Below are positions 2,547 through 14,541 of a stretch of DNA of 32,378 nucleotides, piece by piece. The DNA is taken from positions 1-32,378 of the forward strand of contig CAIUHP010000027.1 in NCBI GenBank assembly GCA_903899015.1. Reading direction: 5' to 3'. The position numbers and the translations under genes are program-made. The stretch's first letter is position 1, and every line of letters begins with the position of its first letter. The notes below the pieces were generated by a model that worked only from the letters and a program-made list of their open reading frames with translations, was not told where the DNA came from and searched no databases. The DNA comes from an uncultured Armatimonadota bacterium. GTDB lineage: Bacteria > Armatimonadota > Fimbriimonadia > Fimbriimonadales > Fimbriimonadaceae.

Positions 2547-3536
2547 ATGATGCAGAATAGTCGCATGGTACTCGTCGGATCGATCGCCTTGGTGCTAGCC
2601 TGTTTTTCCTCAGTCGTAATCGCAAGTGAGACCCAAGAACCCAAAGCTCCCAAGCCAGCCCTCGATGGATTTACTGCCGACCCCGCGATCCGAGTTTTCG
2701 GTAAGCGGTACTACATCTACCCAACTTCTGATAAGCCGAACTGGCAGACGACCGATTTCTCGGTTTGGTCATCAGACGACTTGATCACATGGAAGAAAGA
2801 TGCCCTCCTCATGGATGTCACGAAAGACTTGAAGTGGGCAAATATTGAAGCCTGGGCACCCGATTGCATTGAGAGAAATGGAAAGTACTACTTCTATTTC
2901 TGCGCTCATGGTCAAATTGGGGTGGCAACCAGTGACTCTCCCACAGGACCGTTTATCGATGCCTTGGGTAAGCCCTTGGTTGCGAAAGGAAGCGTAAAGA
3001 CCTACCCAATCGATCCCTATCCCTTCATTGATGAGGACGGAACGGCCTACCTCTACTTCGGGAACGGCACTCCCACGGTCTACAAACTCGCAAAGGACAT
3101 GATCTCCTTTGACGGTCCGCCAATCCAATTTCCGCTCAAGGAGTTCCGCGAAGGAATTGTTGTCTTCAATCGCAAGGGACTCTACTACTTCATGTGGTCC
3201 ATTGATGACGCTCGAAGCGACGATTATCACGTGGCTTACGGCATTTCGAAAACTCCCTTTGGGCCGGTTGAATTTCCAGAAAACAACGTGGTTATTCGTC
3301 AGCACGGAATCGTCAAAGGCACCGGTCACAACAGTATCGTGAACGTTCCGGGCACCGACCGCTGGTATACCGCTTACCACCGTCATGCAATTCCAGATGG
3401 CAGTGGATTCAAGCGAGAAACATGCATCGCAGAAGTGAAATTCCGCAAAGATGGGACGATCTTGCCCGTCGATGTGATGTCTTCAGTCCATCGCAAAGAA
3501 TTGGTCCGCCACCCACTCAAGTCAAGAGTTGATTGA
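2547..3536 (+). CDS. secreted glycoside hydrolase family 43 protein
   Basis: 329 residues. A hydrophobic leader (VLVGSIALVLAC from residue 8) is followed by a low-complexity linker. VLAC could be a lipobox, so this may be a lipoprotein rather than a freely secreted protein. The five-bladed GH43 propeller follows, and its three catalytic acids can be placed: base D45 in FTADPAI, pKa-modulating D156 in YPIDPYPF, and acid E202 in FREGIVVF. GTGHNSIV near residue 257 is the conserved histidine strand. GH43 enzymes remove alpha-L-arabinofuranosyl, beta-xylosyl or galactosyl units with inversion; the neighbourhood favours arabinose, but subfamily and substrate are not determined. No convincing ribosome site precedes the ATG; ATG codons at 2550 and 2565 also fit. 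The next small gene begins 14 bases after the stop, so they are probably co-transcribed. Confidence 0.88.
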   Translation: MMQNSRMVLVGSIALVLACFSSVVIASETQEPKAPKPALDGFTADPAIRVFGKRYYIYPTSDKPNWQTTDFSVWSSDDLITWKKDALLMDVTKDLKWANIEAWAPDCIERNGKYYFYFCAHGQIGVATSDSPTGPFIDALGKPLVAKGSVKTYPIDPYPFIDEDGTAYLYFGNGTPTVYKLAKDMISFDGPPIQFPLKEFREGIVVFNRKGLYYFMWSIDDARSDDYHVAYGISKTPFGPVEFPENNVVIRQHGIVKGTGHNSIVNVPGTDRWYTAYHRHAIPDGSGFKRETCIAEVKFRKDGTILPVDVMSSVHRKELVRHPLKSRVD

Positions 3537-3549
3537 TAATAGATCCATC

Positions 3550-3953
3550 ATGTCCCAGCGTCAAGACAAAGACAATCCCTATCAGTTACAAACCCCTCCT
3601 GGAACTTCGAGCTATCAAATGTATTTCGACTCCAGGGAGGGAAAAGAAGTGATCGTTTGCGTAGTAGGATCCACGACGCTTCGGTATGACGCTCGGTGTG
3701 TTCAAGACGCAGTAGATATGCTGTCCGCCCATAAGGACTGGATGGATCTCGGCGGAGCCGACGAGCAAAAAAAGCCAAGGTCGGCACTTTTGAAGCCTGG
3801 GGACGTTCGGTAAGTAACCCCATATGTGGGTGGTACGGGCTTAAAAAGGGATTACGCGGAAGGTTTGGAGTATACGTGCCACCTCTCCTTGAGGCGATGG
3901 GTCTTGTGGAATTGACTCACGAACCAAAGAATAATCGCATCAGGGCGAAGTAG
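3550..3953 (+). CDS. small conserved DUF6855-like protein, split by a -1 frameshift
   Basis: The zero frame from ATG 3550 gives 87 residues and stops at 3811-3813 just after a run of seven A. Reading one base back at that run continues into a frame open to TAG 3951-3953 and gives about 134 residues. The zero-frame part has NPYQLQTPPGTSSYQMYFDS, IVCVVGSTTLRYD and KDWMDLGGADEQ. The shifted part has VGTFEAWGRS, CGWYGLKKGLRGRFGVYVPP and NNRIRAK. I recall a small family (named from memory as DUF6855) in which these blocks are continuous in one chain with matching spacing. The zero-frame tail after DEQKK looks non-native. The next gene's AGGG overlaps the distal stop, which supports 3953 as the true end. 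It may be programmed frameshifting, a recent null mutation or a homopolymer error. A TTG at 3529 is an alternative start. Confidence 0.7.
3754..3774 (+). other. candidate -1 ribosomal frameshift signal (A AAA AAG)
   Basis: In the zero frame the codons are CAA AAA AAG, so the heptamer A AAA AAG (3768-3774) sits exactly in the phase needed for -1 tandem slippage, as in E. coli dnaX. A Shine-Dalgarno-like GGAG (3754-3757) ends ten bases before the heptamer, close to the dnaX spacing. A 5-bp stem with a three-base loop (TCGGC 3749-3753, GCCGA 3757-3761) partly covers it. Downstream I see only a weak bulged stem (3775-3780 with 3796-3800), not a strong hairpin or pseudoknot. Confidence 0.5.
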
Positions 3954-3965
3954 GGATGACTGCAA

Positions 3966-4991
3966 ATGCTGCGTTATAGCCTGGGCCAGAAGCAACAGCA
4001 CTTGCGAACTGTTTTGCCTGAAGAGGAAGCGCATGTGAACGCCTTGTTGTCCGCCGCTGAAGCGCGTGTCTCCAAACTTCAGATCCTACTCGCCTTAGGG
4101 GGAGCCGTATTCTTTATCGGTATCGTAACCATGTTCTTACCAAGCGTCACTGGTTACGGTTTCGGCGCGATCATGTTGATTTTTATCGTCATGCCCCGCA
4201 TTGTGCTTGGCTACCGCGACGCCCTTCGTCCTTTACGACTTTTACAACAGTCGGCCCCTTTGTTTTTGGTGGCAGTCTATGGCGATCCTTTCGAACCGGA
4301 CTCCAACGTTCTGCATCCTGATACCGGTTTATTGATTCGTCAAGGAGGCAACCTCGTGAACGCAGTCATTAAAGTCGAAGGTGTCAAAGATGCCGAACCG
4401 CAGACCTATCCCGATGCGGGCTGGTACCCAATAGAACGACAATCGGGACGTGGACTCGACCGTCGGCCCCTTTCCGGAGAGGAACTAAGGGAATTACAGG
4501 TCTTCCGATCTCAATTACCGGTCAAGACGAATGGTTTTCTTCTCATTCCGACTTGGGTGTTTATTGGCGGAATTGTGTCCATATTCGATCCGAAAACCTC
4601 CCTTCCGCCCGTCGTTTCCTGGCTTTGCGTCTTAGGTGGATTGCTTTCAGTTGGTTTGCATATTCGTTGGAACACGCTCTTCATACAGTTTTGGCTTGAC
4701 CGTCGAGCAAAGCAAGTTGTCAGACTGGATTTGGATGGCACGAAAATTGAGTATTTGCCTTACAGTGGAATCATTTGGACCGAAGATGAAAGTCCATCCG
4801 AACTACGCAGGGATGGCACGTTTAGAATCTTTAACCATCAATCCCTCAAACAGAAGAAGAAACAGTCAAGCCAGGAAACCGTTACAGCTTACTCGGGTGA
4901 AGGGCAATTGCCCTCCCCTGAACAAGTTGAGCTCCCAACTGACCGTGAAGAACTGCCAGAGGATGTTGACCATCGACGGACATCTTTGTAG
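3966..4991 (+). CDS. four-helix membrane protein of unknown function
   Basis: 341 residues that I do not recognise. A cytoplasmic-looking N-terminus precedes a helix pair at about residues 38-58 (LLALGGAVFFIGIVTMFL) and 64-82. A soluble stretch of about 100 residues follows (LFLVAVYGDPFEPD, VKDAEPQTYPDAGWYP), then a second pair at about 190-210 and 213-233, and a charged tail rich in K, Q and E. The two-pair layout around a soluble domain is compatible with a membrane sensor or scaffold, but no motif supports a specific role. AGGG lies ten bases before the ATG and overlaps the stop of the frameshifted gene, so GH43, the small gene and this one may form one transcript. The last 110 bases overlap the convergent esterase gene, and the polar tail is the overlapping part. 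Confidence 0.72.
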   Translation: MLRYSLGQKQQHLRTVLPEEEAHVNALLSAAEARVSKLQILLALGGAVFFIGIVTMFLPSVTGYGFGAIMLIFIVMPRIVLGYRDALRPLRLLQQSAPLFLVAVYGDPFEPDSNVLHPDTGLLIRQGGNLVNAVIKVEGVKDAEPQTYPDAGWYPIERQSGRGLDRRPLSGEELRELQVFRSQLPVKTNGFLLIPTWVFIGGIVSIFDPKTSLPPVVSWLCVLGGLLSVGLHIRWNTLFIQFWLDRRAKQVVRLDLDGTKIEYLPYSGIIWTEDESPSELRRDGTFRIFNHQSLKQKKKQSSQETVTAYSGEGQLPSPEQVELPTDREELPEDVDHRRTSL

Positions 4992-6052: not shown

Positions 6053-8374
6053 TCACTCGTAAATCTCAACCTCACTCAACTGTGCTGCGTTAGGATATTT
6101 AGGATTGGCTGAGGCGCGAATTGTTAAGCGAACCCTATCCGTTAAAACAGGAGCAAATTTCGCGATCAGAGTTCGCGAATCGTGGTTGTCTTGCGTGCTA
6201 AAGACCGACCTAGGTTGCTTATCAAACCATACGGCAGCTTCAAGACTCACCGGATATCCTGCTGGATCAGCAAAATGAATCACAATCCGGCTGACCCGTG
6301 CTGGCTTCGCAAGGTGAATCTCAACCCAATGGGGATGTTGTGAATTTACGGACGAGTGCCATCGGTTAGAAAAGTCGCCGGGGGTGGAGATCACACTGTC
6401 GATAAGTTTTTGGATACAACCCGGTTCCTTGTCGTATTCGCTATCCGCAGAAGCAGTGGCCCCGTTTGTCGCGAGCGCTAAATCTCGCTTTCGGTCTTCA
6501 ACACGGGGCCGAGGCTGCGGGGGATTGGTCCAAACAGATGCATGTGAAAGGGTTTGCCAGGTTTGGCCGGTGTCGTAAATGGTCGAAAGGTCCAATGTTT
6601 GGGGCAGCCACGTCCGGAAAATGTTCTGCTCGGAGAAAGCGTTGCCGGCCGAAGCATAGTCGCACAACGTAATTCCTGACGTGTCAAATGCCATCCAAGC
6701 TCCAATTCGCTTTGCGGCGGTTGGATTAGGCTTAAGATGAATGCTTTGGCGATTGATGGTGAACTTGCGTTCAGATCGGGCAGTGAGTCGGTTGTCAATC
6801 GCTAATACCACTGGCCCTCGAAGGATGGCGATATGCTCCGATTGGGTCACTACTCGAGCGCGCATATCAAATACGATCGCAACACGATCACCGGCATGCC
6901 AAGTCCGACGAATCTTTGTATAACCGGGCTTCAAAGTTTCGGGATGACCATTGATCGAAACCAGAGTGTGCTTGCTCCAATCTGGGATTCGAAGTGAGAG
7001 GGTAAAGGTTTCTGGCTTCGGCGGAGTCACCTGGATCGTAGCATGATCCGATACCGGATAGTCGCCGATAACATCTAGTTTAATGCCTCCAACTTGAGCA
7101 GATCCACTCGAGTAGAGGTTCACTACTGGCCCATCCGGACCTTCCATGAACGCCCAAGAGGGCGTCAGCATCAATCCTCGTGGTCCGTTGACGACGCAGC
7201 AGCTTAAGTTCACATCGCTATGCTGAACATAGCTTGGGACTCGCACTCCCATCATGCCACCGAAATAGGCCCACCACCTGCCGTCCGGCATCATCGAGCC
7301 AAGGAGGCCATTGTAGAGATTCTTCTCTAATTCATCTGCATAGCGAACCTCTCCGGTTAGTCGCAGGAGTTGCTCGCAGAACTTCATCCACGTCACAGTA
7401 ACGCAGGTTTCCATCGGCTTATTCACGATGCCGGTTTGCTTATTCGCTCCACTAAACCAGACTTCGCCGCTAGTGCCAACTCCGACTAACGTCGTTTCGT
7501 TTTGGAATATTCCATCCGCGATCTTAATAGATGCTTGAAGATATTCCGGCTTACCAGTCGCACGGTACAGCTCACACAAACCCTCGAAGCACGACATCAT
7601 TTCGTAGGCTTTTGGAGCACACATCTGGTCGGGGTGCTTCCCCGCGAGAGCGTCTTCAATAAGGCGCATCCCATTAGGAAGCCGTTGAGACCGCCTACTC
7701 CAACACGAGACAATATAGGTGGCGAAGTCCAGATATTTCCTGTCGAGAGTGCGATCGTACAGGAGAACAATCGGTTCGAGAACCGATGATGCGGGCAACC
7801 CGTTCCACTCACCGACGTCCGCAATATCTACCTTTCCTGGCCCGAGTTCACTGATCAACACGTCACATTCTCGCTTGGCTGCTAGTAGAACAGCGGGATC
7901 GTGACTACGATCGAAGTCGGCGATCAAACCAAGCAGGACGTACTTGCAGCCCCAGACATCCCAACCTTCGAGACGGTGCGCAGGAGTTCTTGTGCCGATG
8001 TATCCATCTTCAGCATGGGTTGCGATCAAGGCTTGAGTTGCCTCAAGTAGCTTGGCCCGGGTTTCGTGCGATGTCCGATAAGAATCGGCCAATGCGAGGG
8101 AGGTGAACCACTTCCCCCAATACTCGCTTCGCCAATCTGCCGAACCGGTCTCAGCCTTTGATCGAAAGGGGGCTACAACGGCTTCAATGTCCTGAGCTAA
8201 CAATCGATTCTTAAGACACACGTCCAACTTGTTGCCAAGAAAACCCTTCAATCGAACCGACCCAGCCGTTGCAGGCTGGAACACGTCTCGATCCACCAGC
8301 TTTTGAGCGAAGACCGAAGCAATACTTAGAACGCTGGCCAACACGATCGTGATCGATTTCGACTGAGAACTCAT
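6053..8374 (-). CDS. secreted GH127-type beta-L-arabinofuranosidase with C-terminal discoidin-like domain
   Basis: 773 residues with a signal peptide ending near SVFAQ. The (alpha/alpha)6 barrel of GH127 (former DUF1680) runs to about residue 420 (LEGWDVWGCKYVLLGL, YEMMSCFEGLCELYRATG). The zinc/nucleophile set of this clan is visible: E322 and C324 in METCVTVTW, and C392-C393 in NLSCCVVN, corresponding by recollection to Glu338, Cys340, Cys417 and Cys418 of HypBA1. Beta-sandwich regions follow (FTLSLRIPDWS, ILRGPVVLAID). The last ~130 residues (DFSNRWHSS, HPHWVEIHLAKPARVSRIVI, QLSEVEIYE) are an F5/8 type C-like carbohydrate-binding domain. It should release terminal beta-L-arabinofuranose with retention, using a cysteine nucleophile. 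First gene of a pair with the SGNH esterase. Confidence 0.9.
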   Translation of the reverse strand: MSSQSKSITIVLASVLSIASVFAQKLVDRDVFQPATAGSVRLKGFLGNKLDVCLKNRLLAQDIEAVVAPFRSKAETGSADWRSEYWGKWFTSLALADSYRTSHETRAKLLEATQALIATHAEDGYIGTRTPAHRLEGWDVWGCKYVLLGLIADFDRSHDPAVLLAAKRECDVLISELGPGKVDIADVGEWNGLPASSVLEPIVLLYDRTLDRKYLDFATYIVSCWSRRSQRLPNGMRLIEDALAGKHPDQMCAPKAYEMMSCFEGLCELYRATGKPEYLQASIKIADGIFQNETTLVGVGTSGEVWFSGANKQTGIVNKPMETCVTVTWMKFCEQLLRLTGEVRYADELEKNLYNGLLGSMMPDGRWWAYFGGMMGVRVPSYVQHSDVNLSCCVVNGPRGLMLTPSWAFMEGPDGPVVNLYSSGSAQVGGIKLDVIGDYPVSDHATIQVTPPKPETFTLSLRIPDWSKHTLVSINGHPETLKPGYTKIRRTWHAGDRVAIVFDMRARVVTQSEHIAILRGPVVLAIDNRLTARSERKFTINRQSIHLKPNPTAAKRIGAWMAFDTSGITLCDYASAGNAFSEQNIFRTWLPQTLDLSTIYDTGQTWQTLSHASVWTNPPQPRPRVEDRKRDLALATNGATASADSEYDKEPGCIQKLIDSVISTPGDFSNRWHSSVNSQHPHWVEIHLAKPARVSRIVIHFADPAGYPVSLEAAVWFDKQPRSVFSTQDNHDSRTLIAKFAPVLTDRVRLTIRASANPKYPNAAQLSEVEIYE

Positions 8375-12201: not shown

Positions 12202-14541
12202 TCATTTGGCTCGTCGAACAGTCGTAGCGCCCGCAATGATCGGACCAGCATTGTTCGCACTAGGTTCAATTCGAACGCGAATCGTGGACTTCTGTGAAGT
12301 GATTTCAGCCGGCAAGGAATAAATCACTTCGTAGAAGCGATTTTGTGGTCGCGACTGAAGTGTCTCCGATGCCACTTTTATCTTATCCGCAAAAATCCCA
12401 AAGTCGGTACGAGACCGCTCATTTCCCCAGTATGTGACCACCAAGTCAACAGGTTCCTTCGGGTCCACTTTCAAATCGAATTCGAACCAACCACCTGGGA
12501 GAGGCTGACGCGTTCCACGGTCATTCTGAGTTCGCACGTCGTTTCGCTCCGAAGACAAGTGATGGTCTCGCTCAGGCTGCATCTCGCCAATCATGATTGA
12601 GTCAATCGTGCGGGCCTCGATATCTTTGCGATGGGATTCTTCGGCACGATATTCGGCTTCCTTGGCGTCCCACTGAGAAGTCGTGAACCGATCAAAATAG
12701 ACCCCATACCGTTCATGGGTCATGCTGTAGAAGGGCGCAAACGTTAAGTCTGCGGGTTTAGCCGCATTGACGGATTGAAACGCTAACGGCTTGCCTGGAA
12801 TTGGCTTGAGCCAGTTATTAAGAGGACGATCATTGGGTACGAGAACGGGTGTGCGGTACACGGCCGACTGTGAAACTTGCTTTGCTCGGCGATCTGATCC
12901 AGGCCCCATATCGGCAGCCAAAACGATCGGGCCATAGAGAAGCGCTACCTTATTGATATCATCAGGTGTAGTCTCCTCATGCAAACTCATCGGTAATGAG
13001 AATTCCAATCGATCGCCCTTTCGCCACTTCCGCTTGATCGAAACATAAGTCGAAGGTGTCGACGACTTAGCGATGGCTTTACCGTTTACGGAATAAGTGA
13101 TTGGACCACGCGCCCATCCGGGATGGCGTAGGCGCATATCAAAGTCGCGATTGCCATCCAGAATCGTAATCGTCACTCGATTTCCATTCGGGAAAGATGT
13201 CTCCTGGCGCAGACTCGTTTTAGCCTCCTTCCAGTGGAGTTCGGTCGGCATGAACAAGTTCACCCAAAGTGTTGAACCGCCTCCATGAAAGTAGGTTGTA
13301 TCGCCATGCTTTGTGTGATTTTCCATTCCCGAACCGTGGCAACAGGTGAAATCATAAAACGGGTTGCTGTAGCGTCGAAACGAGTTCGTTGCCAACGGAA
13401 CGAAATAAGTAACCATGCCGCTTTCCGGATCCTGCGAGGCAAGGATATGGTTGTAATAAGCTCGCTCGTAGAAGTCCATCTCTTTGGCGTCAGGATGCCA
13501 CTCGAAGAGATGTCGAGTCAGTTTCAGCATGTTGTACGTGTTGCACGTTTCGCACGTATTGGTCGTTAACTTGTCGGCAAGTTTGTCTGGTGTTCCCAGA
13601 TATTCTCCGTTGCTATTCCCACCCATCACATAGGTGTGGTGGTTAACAACAGCATCCCAAAAGAACTCTGCAGTCTTCCGATCTTTTTCTTCTCCGGTGA
13701 CTTCATAAAGTCGGGCAAGGCCAATGATTTTGGGAATCTGGGTATTCGAATGCTTTCCGGCAAGGTTGTCCACTCCCCGAGAAAGCGGTTCGAGCACGCG
13801 GTTATCGTAGAACTTTTGGGCCAACTCCAAATCTCGAGCGTTCTTGGTACGAACGTAGAGTTCGGTCAACGAATCGTTCATTCCGCCATATTCGGTGCCG
13901 AGCATCTTTTGCCATTGATCCGGTGTCAGATCCTTTGTCTCATCGTAAGCCCAATCCGCAAATTTCTGAGCGACCTGCAATGCCTTTGGGCTCGAGCACA
14001 TCGAATTTACGTCAAGCAACCCCGCCAGAACCTTGTGATGAACATACCAAGGCGACCACATGCCATTCAGGTCAAATCCGCCGCTCCTCATCTTGCCTGC
14101 TTTGACATCTGCCCAAATGGCATCAAGCTTCTTCCTATTGAAACCGTCGTTGAAATTAAACGCCGACAAGAAGCCATCGGGCCTAGCCTGTTGGCACTCC
14201 GCTAAGCCGTCTACGATTGCGTCAACTTTGGCTTTGAATCGCTTGTCACCATAGTGGGAATACTCTTGTGCGCATGCTGACAAATAGTGTCCGAGTGAGT
14301 GACCCGCTAACCCACCCGTTTCCCAGCCGCCATAAATCTCGCCCTTGGATGGAAGTCCACTATTGATCCGGAAACCAGCAAGCAATCGATTTGTATCGAC
14401 GGTAAGTAAATACTTCTCGGTTGCACGATGTGCGGTTTCAAATGGACCACCCAAAAGTCGAACATCGGACAAGTCAAACGGTTGGGCAACGATCTTTGGA
14501 GCAGGCATGAAGGCCGCGAGTGCAAGAAGGGTTGATGTCAT
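12202..14541 (-). CDS. secreted GH146-like beta-L-arabinofuranosidase
   Basis: 779 residues with a short leader (STLLALAAFMPAPKIVAQ). The catalytic barrel begins FDLSDVRLLGGPFETAHRAT and contains IYGGWETGGLAGHSLGHYLS and EYGGMNDSLTELYVRT. Zinc/nucleophile residues are E331 and C333 in TCETCNTYNM and C400-C401 in FTCCHGSGMENH. A beta region (RKGDRLEFSLPMSLHEE, VALLYGPIVLAADMG) corresponds to DUF4986, and the last ~150 residues (DSIMIGEMQPERDHHLSSE, GGWFEFDLKV, FGIFADKIKV) to DUF6805. This set is typical of the GH146/GH127 clan, and the enzyme should release beta-L-arabinofuranose from arabinan or arabinosylated glycans. AAGAGA lies about ten bases before the ATG. Divergent from the DUF5695-like gene with a shared promoter region. 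It differs in architecture from the GH127 gene at 6053, so the two may act on different linkages. Confidence 0.9.
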   Translation of the reverse strand: MTSTLLALAAFMPAPKIVAQPFDLSDVRLLGGPFETAHRATEKYLLTVDTNRLLAGFRINSGLPSKGEIYGGWETGGLAGHSLGHYLSACAQEYSHYGDKRFKAKVDAIVDGLAECQQARPDGFLSAFNFNDGFNRKKLDAIWADVKAGKMRSGGFDLNGMWSPWYVHHKVLAGLLDVNSMCSSPKALQVAQKFADWAYDETKDLTPDQWQKMLGTEYGGMNDSLTELYVRTKNARDLELAQKFYDNRVLEPLSRGVDNLAGKHSNTQIPKIIGLARLYEVTGEEKDRKTAEFFWDAVVNHHTYVMGGNSNGEYLGTPDKLADKLTTNTCETCNTYNMLKLTRHLFEWHPDAKEMDFYERAYYNHILASQDPESGMVTYFVPLATNSFRRYSNPFYDFTCCHGSGMENHTKHGDTTYFHGGGSTLWVNLFMPTELHWKEAKTSLRQETSFPNGNRVTITILDGNRDFDMRLRHPGWARGPITYSVNGKAIAKSSTPSTYVSIKRKWRKGDRLEFSLPMSLHEETTPDDINKVALLYGPIVLAADMGPGSDRRAKQVSQSAVYRTPVLVPNDRPLNNWLKPIPGKPLAFQSVNAAKPADLTFAPFYSMTHERYGVYFDRFTTSQWDAKEAEYRAEESHRKDIEARTIDSIMIGEMQPERDHHLSSERNDVRTQNDRGTRQPLPGGWFEFDLKVDPKEPVDLVVTYWGNERSRTDFGIFADKIKVASETLQSRPQNRFYEVIYSLPAEITSQKSTIRVRIEPSANNAGPIIAGATTVRRAK

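Follow-up and report, generated by a model that had tools for sequence, protein, structure and literature searches.

The window (the whole stretch of 32,378 nucleotides analysed here) carries between positions 3550 and 3953 a small gene of the DUF6855 family (Pfam PF21619), whose protein is divided between two reading frames. The features of this locus are the following:

3550..3813, + strand: zero-frame part of the DUF6855 gene (87 aa followed by TAA), of which the family match covers only the first 75 residues.
3754..3757, + strand: GGAG, a Shine-Dalgarno-like sequence 10 bases 5' of the heptamer, coming from the Gly-Ala codons GGA GCC.
3767..3774, + strand: run of seven A's (A7) and a G, holding the in-phase heptamer A_AAA_AAG (3768-3774); site of the putative one-base loss with respect to CAA AAA GAA GCC.
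3774..3953, + strand: -1-frame continuation of the DUF6855 protein (59 codons followed by TAG), with its conserved columns intact.
3775..3854, + strand: place where a stimulatory stem would be expected; no stable structure is predicted (-17.1 kcal/mol, z +1.45).

The zero frame runs from the ATG at 3550 to the TAA at 3811-3813, and the -1 frame is open throughout from the GCC at 3774 to the TAG at 3951-3953. The zero-frame codons around the A7 run (3767-3773, then G3774) are CAA 3766, AAA 3769 and AAG 3772, and the heptamer lies in the phase required for -1 slippage, with a spacer of 10 bases separating it from the GGAG. The ends of both frames, the phase of the heptamer and the position of the GGAG are all as the initial annotation of this locus had given them. 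Against the DUF6855 profile, for which the curated membership cut-off is 27 bits, the zero frame alone scores 95.9 bits (profile positions 3-75) while the two frames, once joined, score 210.4 bits (positions 3-131 of 132). This rise upholds the earlier view of the -1 frame as a natural continuation: the -1 stretch is, far beyond chance, the true remainder of the DUF6855 protein. The single continuous frame of about 132 residues expected for the family is not found in the window copy, which is broken after residue 75. Two separate genes, or translational coupling between them, were considered and rejected, as the -1 part has no ORF of its own of at least 60 aa and completes a single Pfam domain. 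We found no literature on DUF6855. A scan of viral contigs returned no relative, and a viral or mobile origin was rejected on that ground.

The homologues of the genes flanking the locus in the window at 2547-4991 (a GH43-like gene and the gene of the 3966-4991 protein) adjoin each other in the sister genome G016 (C18) with their order swapped, and the DUF6855 gene of G016 lies on a different contig from them. This means that the neighbourhood has been rearranged. The protein encoded at 3966-4991 (341 aa) has no Pfam match and is found elsewhere in the genus only in G016 (46% identity). Farther along the window, at 6053-8374 and 12202-14541, there are two GH127 beta-L-arabinofuranosidase-like genes, accompanied by GH43, CE2-like and GDSL-lipase genes, which together look like a plant-polysaccharide degradation neighbourhood.

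DUF6855 is present in 24 of the 291 genomes of the phylum, the Armatimonadota, and, within the genus, in 9 of 20 (the window genome being counted). In all 23 other phylum genomes which possess it, it is one open frame with no internal stops. The window genome itself has a paralog (G000:C86, 30043-30438; L001:1501-1896) which is unbroken, 78% identical to the window copy, and reads CAA AAG GAA GCG at the break site. Altogether, 97 distinct relatives pass the break point in one frame. Among the 93 loci which one motif made readable at the break site, none has a run of at least six A's there, the longest having five. The A7 version of the DEQ motif is in no other DUF6855 gene located in the 291 phylum genomes; its only other occurrences in the phylum are at places other than the located DUF6855 genes. 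At the lesion column, which is the residue after DEQK, the 97 sequences have P (73), E (15), L (3), D (2), S (2), T (1) or A (1), and never lysine. The initial annotation had asked whether the heptamer and the split are conserved in sister genomes, and had held that unbroken relatives without the heptamer would speak against programmed frameshifting: the alignment shows neither heptamer nor split in any relative, and unbroken relatives are what we found throughout. Among the named relatives are MAGs of Armatimonadetes/Fimbriimonadaceae, Bacteroidota and Proteobacteria, and genomes of Paenibacillus and others. Within the phylum the family has a patchy distribution, yet there are relatives 62-72% identical in many other phyla; this suggests horizontal transfer.

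Some relatives, L008 and its duplicate record L030, read CAA AAA GAA GCC at the site; the window has one base fewer there, with CAA AAA AA GCC. When its single G is taken away, the relatives' sequence becomes exactly the CAAAAAAAGCC of the window. One base was probably lost here recently, most simply the G of the conserved GAA codon. Such a loss would shift the frame and truncate the protein at residue 87; at the same time it would fuse five A's with two into A7 and leave behind the G of GCC, giving the dnaX heptamer in the right phase. Judging from this comparison, a single lesion accounts for both the frame break and the heptamer. Hence, we regard the dnaX-like heptamer as a probable by-product of the lesion. 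The GGAG derives from the GGA GCC of the well-conserved LGGADEQK stretch, and a Shine-Dalgarno-like motif is present at the tested spacing in 56 of the 97 unbroken relatives, as against 14% of random coding sites in the window genome. Since so many unbroken relatives have such a motif there, the GGAG is probably a by-product of glycine codons and not a frameshift signal.

Past the break, the -1 half respects all 31 of the columns which are 95% conserved among the other sequences. Its codons differ from those of the paralog and of two close relatives synonymously at 30-33 places and nonsynonymously at 8-11. With a branch codon model, omega is 0.007 on the window branch, which is not different from the background value of 0.018; omega = 1 is rejected over the whole gene (2dL 6.2) and is not rejected for the post-break half alone (2dL 2.1). 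With synonymous distances at saturation, the codon model gives no dates, and the lesion can be bounded in age only loosely. By these codon patterns, both halves have been under strong purifying selection through most of the history of the gene. This leaves three possibilities for the lesion: that it is recent, that it is not real, or that it is rescued; the same pattern of selection would be expected if full-length protein were still being made by a leaky shift.

An AlphaFold2 model with 50 aligned relatives (m39cc0a731e40; pLDDT 95.2, pTM 0.89) predicts a small beta-rich N-terminal part and then a winged-helix-like domain (residues 46-132). For these latter residues, matches to winged-helix domains were obtained (the best with Z 8.3 and 1.9 A over 64 residues), which may reflect nothing but a common arrangement. 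No convincing solved relative of DUF6855 was found by sequence (best E 0.11), and no significant one by Foldseek (best E 1.1). One might at most guess at a nucleic-acid-binding role. The break corresponds to residue 72-73 of the model. In the winged-helix-like part this is past the first helix (48-59) and ahead of the second (79-84), so that the short product would stop within a fold and not between domains. With some two thirds of the C-terminal winged-helix-like fold missing, it should be non-functional, and we infer that it is dead.

Two readings had been offered for this locus in the initial annotation: programmed frameshifting, or a fresh inactivation or homopolymer error. The latter is supported and the former, the relatives being intact, is not. 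Programmed -1 ribosomal frameshifting of the dnaX type would make an 87-aa and a 134-aa product here. It would agree with the in-phase A_AAA_AAG, with the GGAG placed ten bases 5' of it, with a -1 frame which is the rest of a conserved protein, and with the canonical anti-Shine-Dalgarno sequence of the window genome, GGATCACCTCCTT. But neither the signal nor the split is present in any relative, and no stimulatory structure is predicted. The downstream RNA (3775-3854) folds at -17.1 kcal/mol against a mean of -21.5 kcal/mol for its shuffles (z +1.45), which makes it less structured than shuffled sequence, and instead of a stem-loop about 5-8 bases past the heptamer there is only a weak stem starting about 12 bases downstream; the early doubt about a downstream stem or pseudoknot was well placed. 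The tRNA set is contrary too. In E. coli the shiftiness of A_AAA_AAG is tied to the sole tRNA-Lys, and T. thermophilus, which has two tRNA-Lys, expresses dnaX by a mechanism other than that of E. coli (PMC5009743). The window genome encodes tRNA-Lys(UUU) and tRNA-Lys(CUU), the latter cognate to AAG as noted for T. thermophilus (PMC5009743), whereas in E. coli tRNA-Lys(UUU) alone has to read AAG, and does so weakly. Other genes moreover tolerate the in-phase heptamer: in about 235 kb of coding sequence sampled, it occurs in three other open ORFs (166, 307 and 423 aa), and because these are intact, its presence alone means little. An intact 423-aa ORF on the + strand of L121 (G000:C12) has it at codon 241, directly after AGGGAGG. 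Together with a short product stopping within a fold, these points make programmed shifting very improbable, and we rejected it for its lack of conservation, its lack of stimulatory structure and the contrary tRNA set.

Most probably, the locus is an ordinary copy of the gene that has recently been broken, or else an error of assembly. Of these, we think it probable that the window gene is one of two DUF6855 copies, in which a recent one-base loss broke the frame and made the heptamer, leaving a non-functional truncated product; the intact paralog could supply the DUF6855 function. An assembly or sequencing error, the true gene being unbroken and one base having been lost in an A-rich stretch, is unlikely, though to be reckoned with. 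Both halves look conserved, with undamaged conserved columns after the break, the fault lies within a homopolymer context, and the authors of GeneTack expect sequencing errors behind most singleton frameshifts validated by BLAST (PMC3711429). On the other side, a plain miscount of A8 as A7 would need a lysine at a column where none of the 97 relatives has one, and is for this reason less likely than the loss of the G. The dropping of an otherwise isolated G is not typical of homopolymer errors. In addition, runs of at least seven of one base elsewhere in the window genome (284 kb sampled, N stretches included) are mostly in intact ORFs (up to 741 aa) or between genes, and none of the 23 genes comparable with G016, a small sample, is frame-broken; the genome-wide frameshift rate is a sampled one. 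The window genes checked have largely full-length Pfam matches. All this argues that the assembly is not poor in general, but a single site cannot be cleared in this way. We infer that the lesion is in the DNA of the organism and not merely in the assembly. Lastly, a broken gene might give some full-length protein by unprogrammed, low-level slippage of the ribosome or the polymerase on A7, as a compensated indel. In E. coli, few heptamers are as prone to shift as A_AAA_AAG (PMC4066793; PMC5009743), a Shine-Dalgarno-like site is present, and no decay is seen after the break. However, when stimulators are lacking, the shifting of heptamers in E. coli exceeds a background near 0.05% by no more than about ten times (PMC4066793), tRNA-Lys(CUU) should reduce shifting further (by extension from PMC5009743), seven A's are just under the length for transcriptional slippage (n > 7, PMC3711429), and the intact paralog removes the need. 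Such a leak is improbable; there is equally little chance that the one-base loss in the Lys-Glu stretch made a working heptamer at which -1 slippage yields enough full-length DUF6855 protein to keep the broken gene under selection. If true, the bacterium, with its two lysine tRNAs, would harbour a nascent gene rescued by frameshifting, and the case would illustrate how programmed frameshift sites can arise. The probable reading, that of a recently broken copy, carries a caution: one base lost in Gln-Lys-Glu (CAA AAA GAA GCC) can place a textbook dnaX heptamer just where the frame breaks. Hence, the fact that a gene is broken at a slippery heptamer is, by itself, no evidence of programming.

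With the E. coli dnaX cassette, the window site shares the in-phase A_AAA_AAG and an upstream Shine-Dalgarno-like sequence at a 10-base spacer. It differs by the absence of a downstream stem and of conservation, by the two lysine tRNAs of its genome, and by a break which falls inside a fold. The product of the shift would be the longer one here, whereas it is the shorter one in E. coli dnaX; that short form is a working subunit (PMC5009743), unlike the short product of the window gene, which would end inside the fold. Compared with its own family, the window gene is, when its frames are joined, 61-77% identical to the intact relatives in the genus, but these and the in-genome paralog are in one frame while the window copy appears split by a one-base loss. 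Pseudogene and sequencing error look alike here in the assembled sequence. The window gene also resembles the singleton frameshifted genes, or nascent pseudogenes, of the GeneTack classification (PMC3711429): it occurs only once, it has no conserved frameshift site, and its frame transition is validated both by Pfam and by its relatives.
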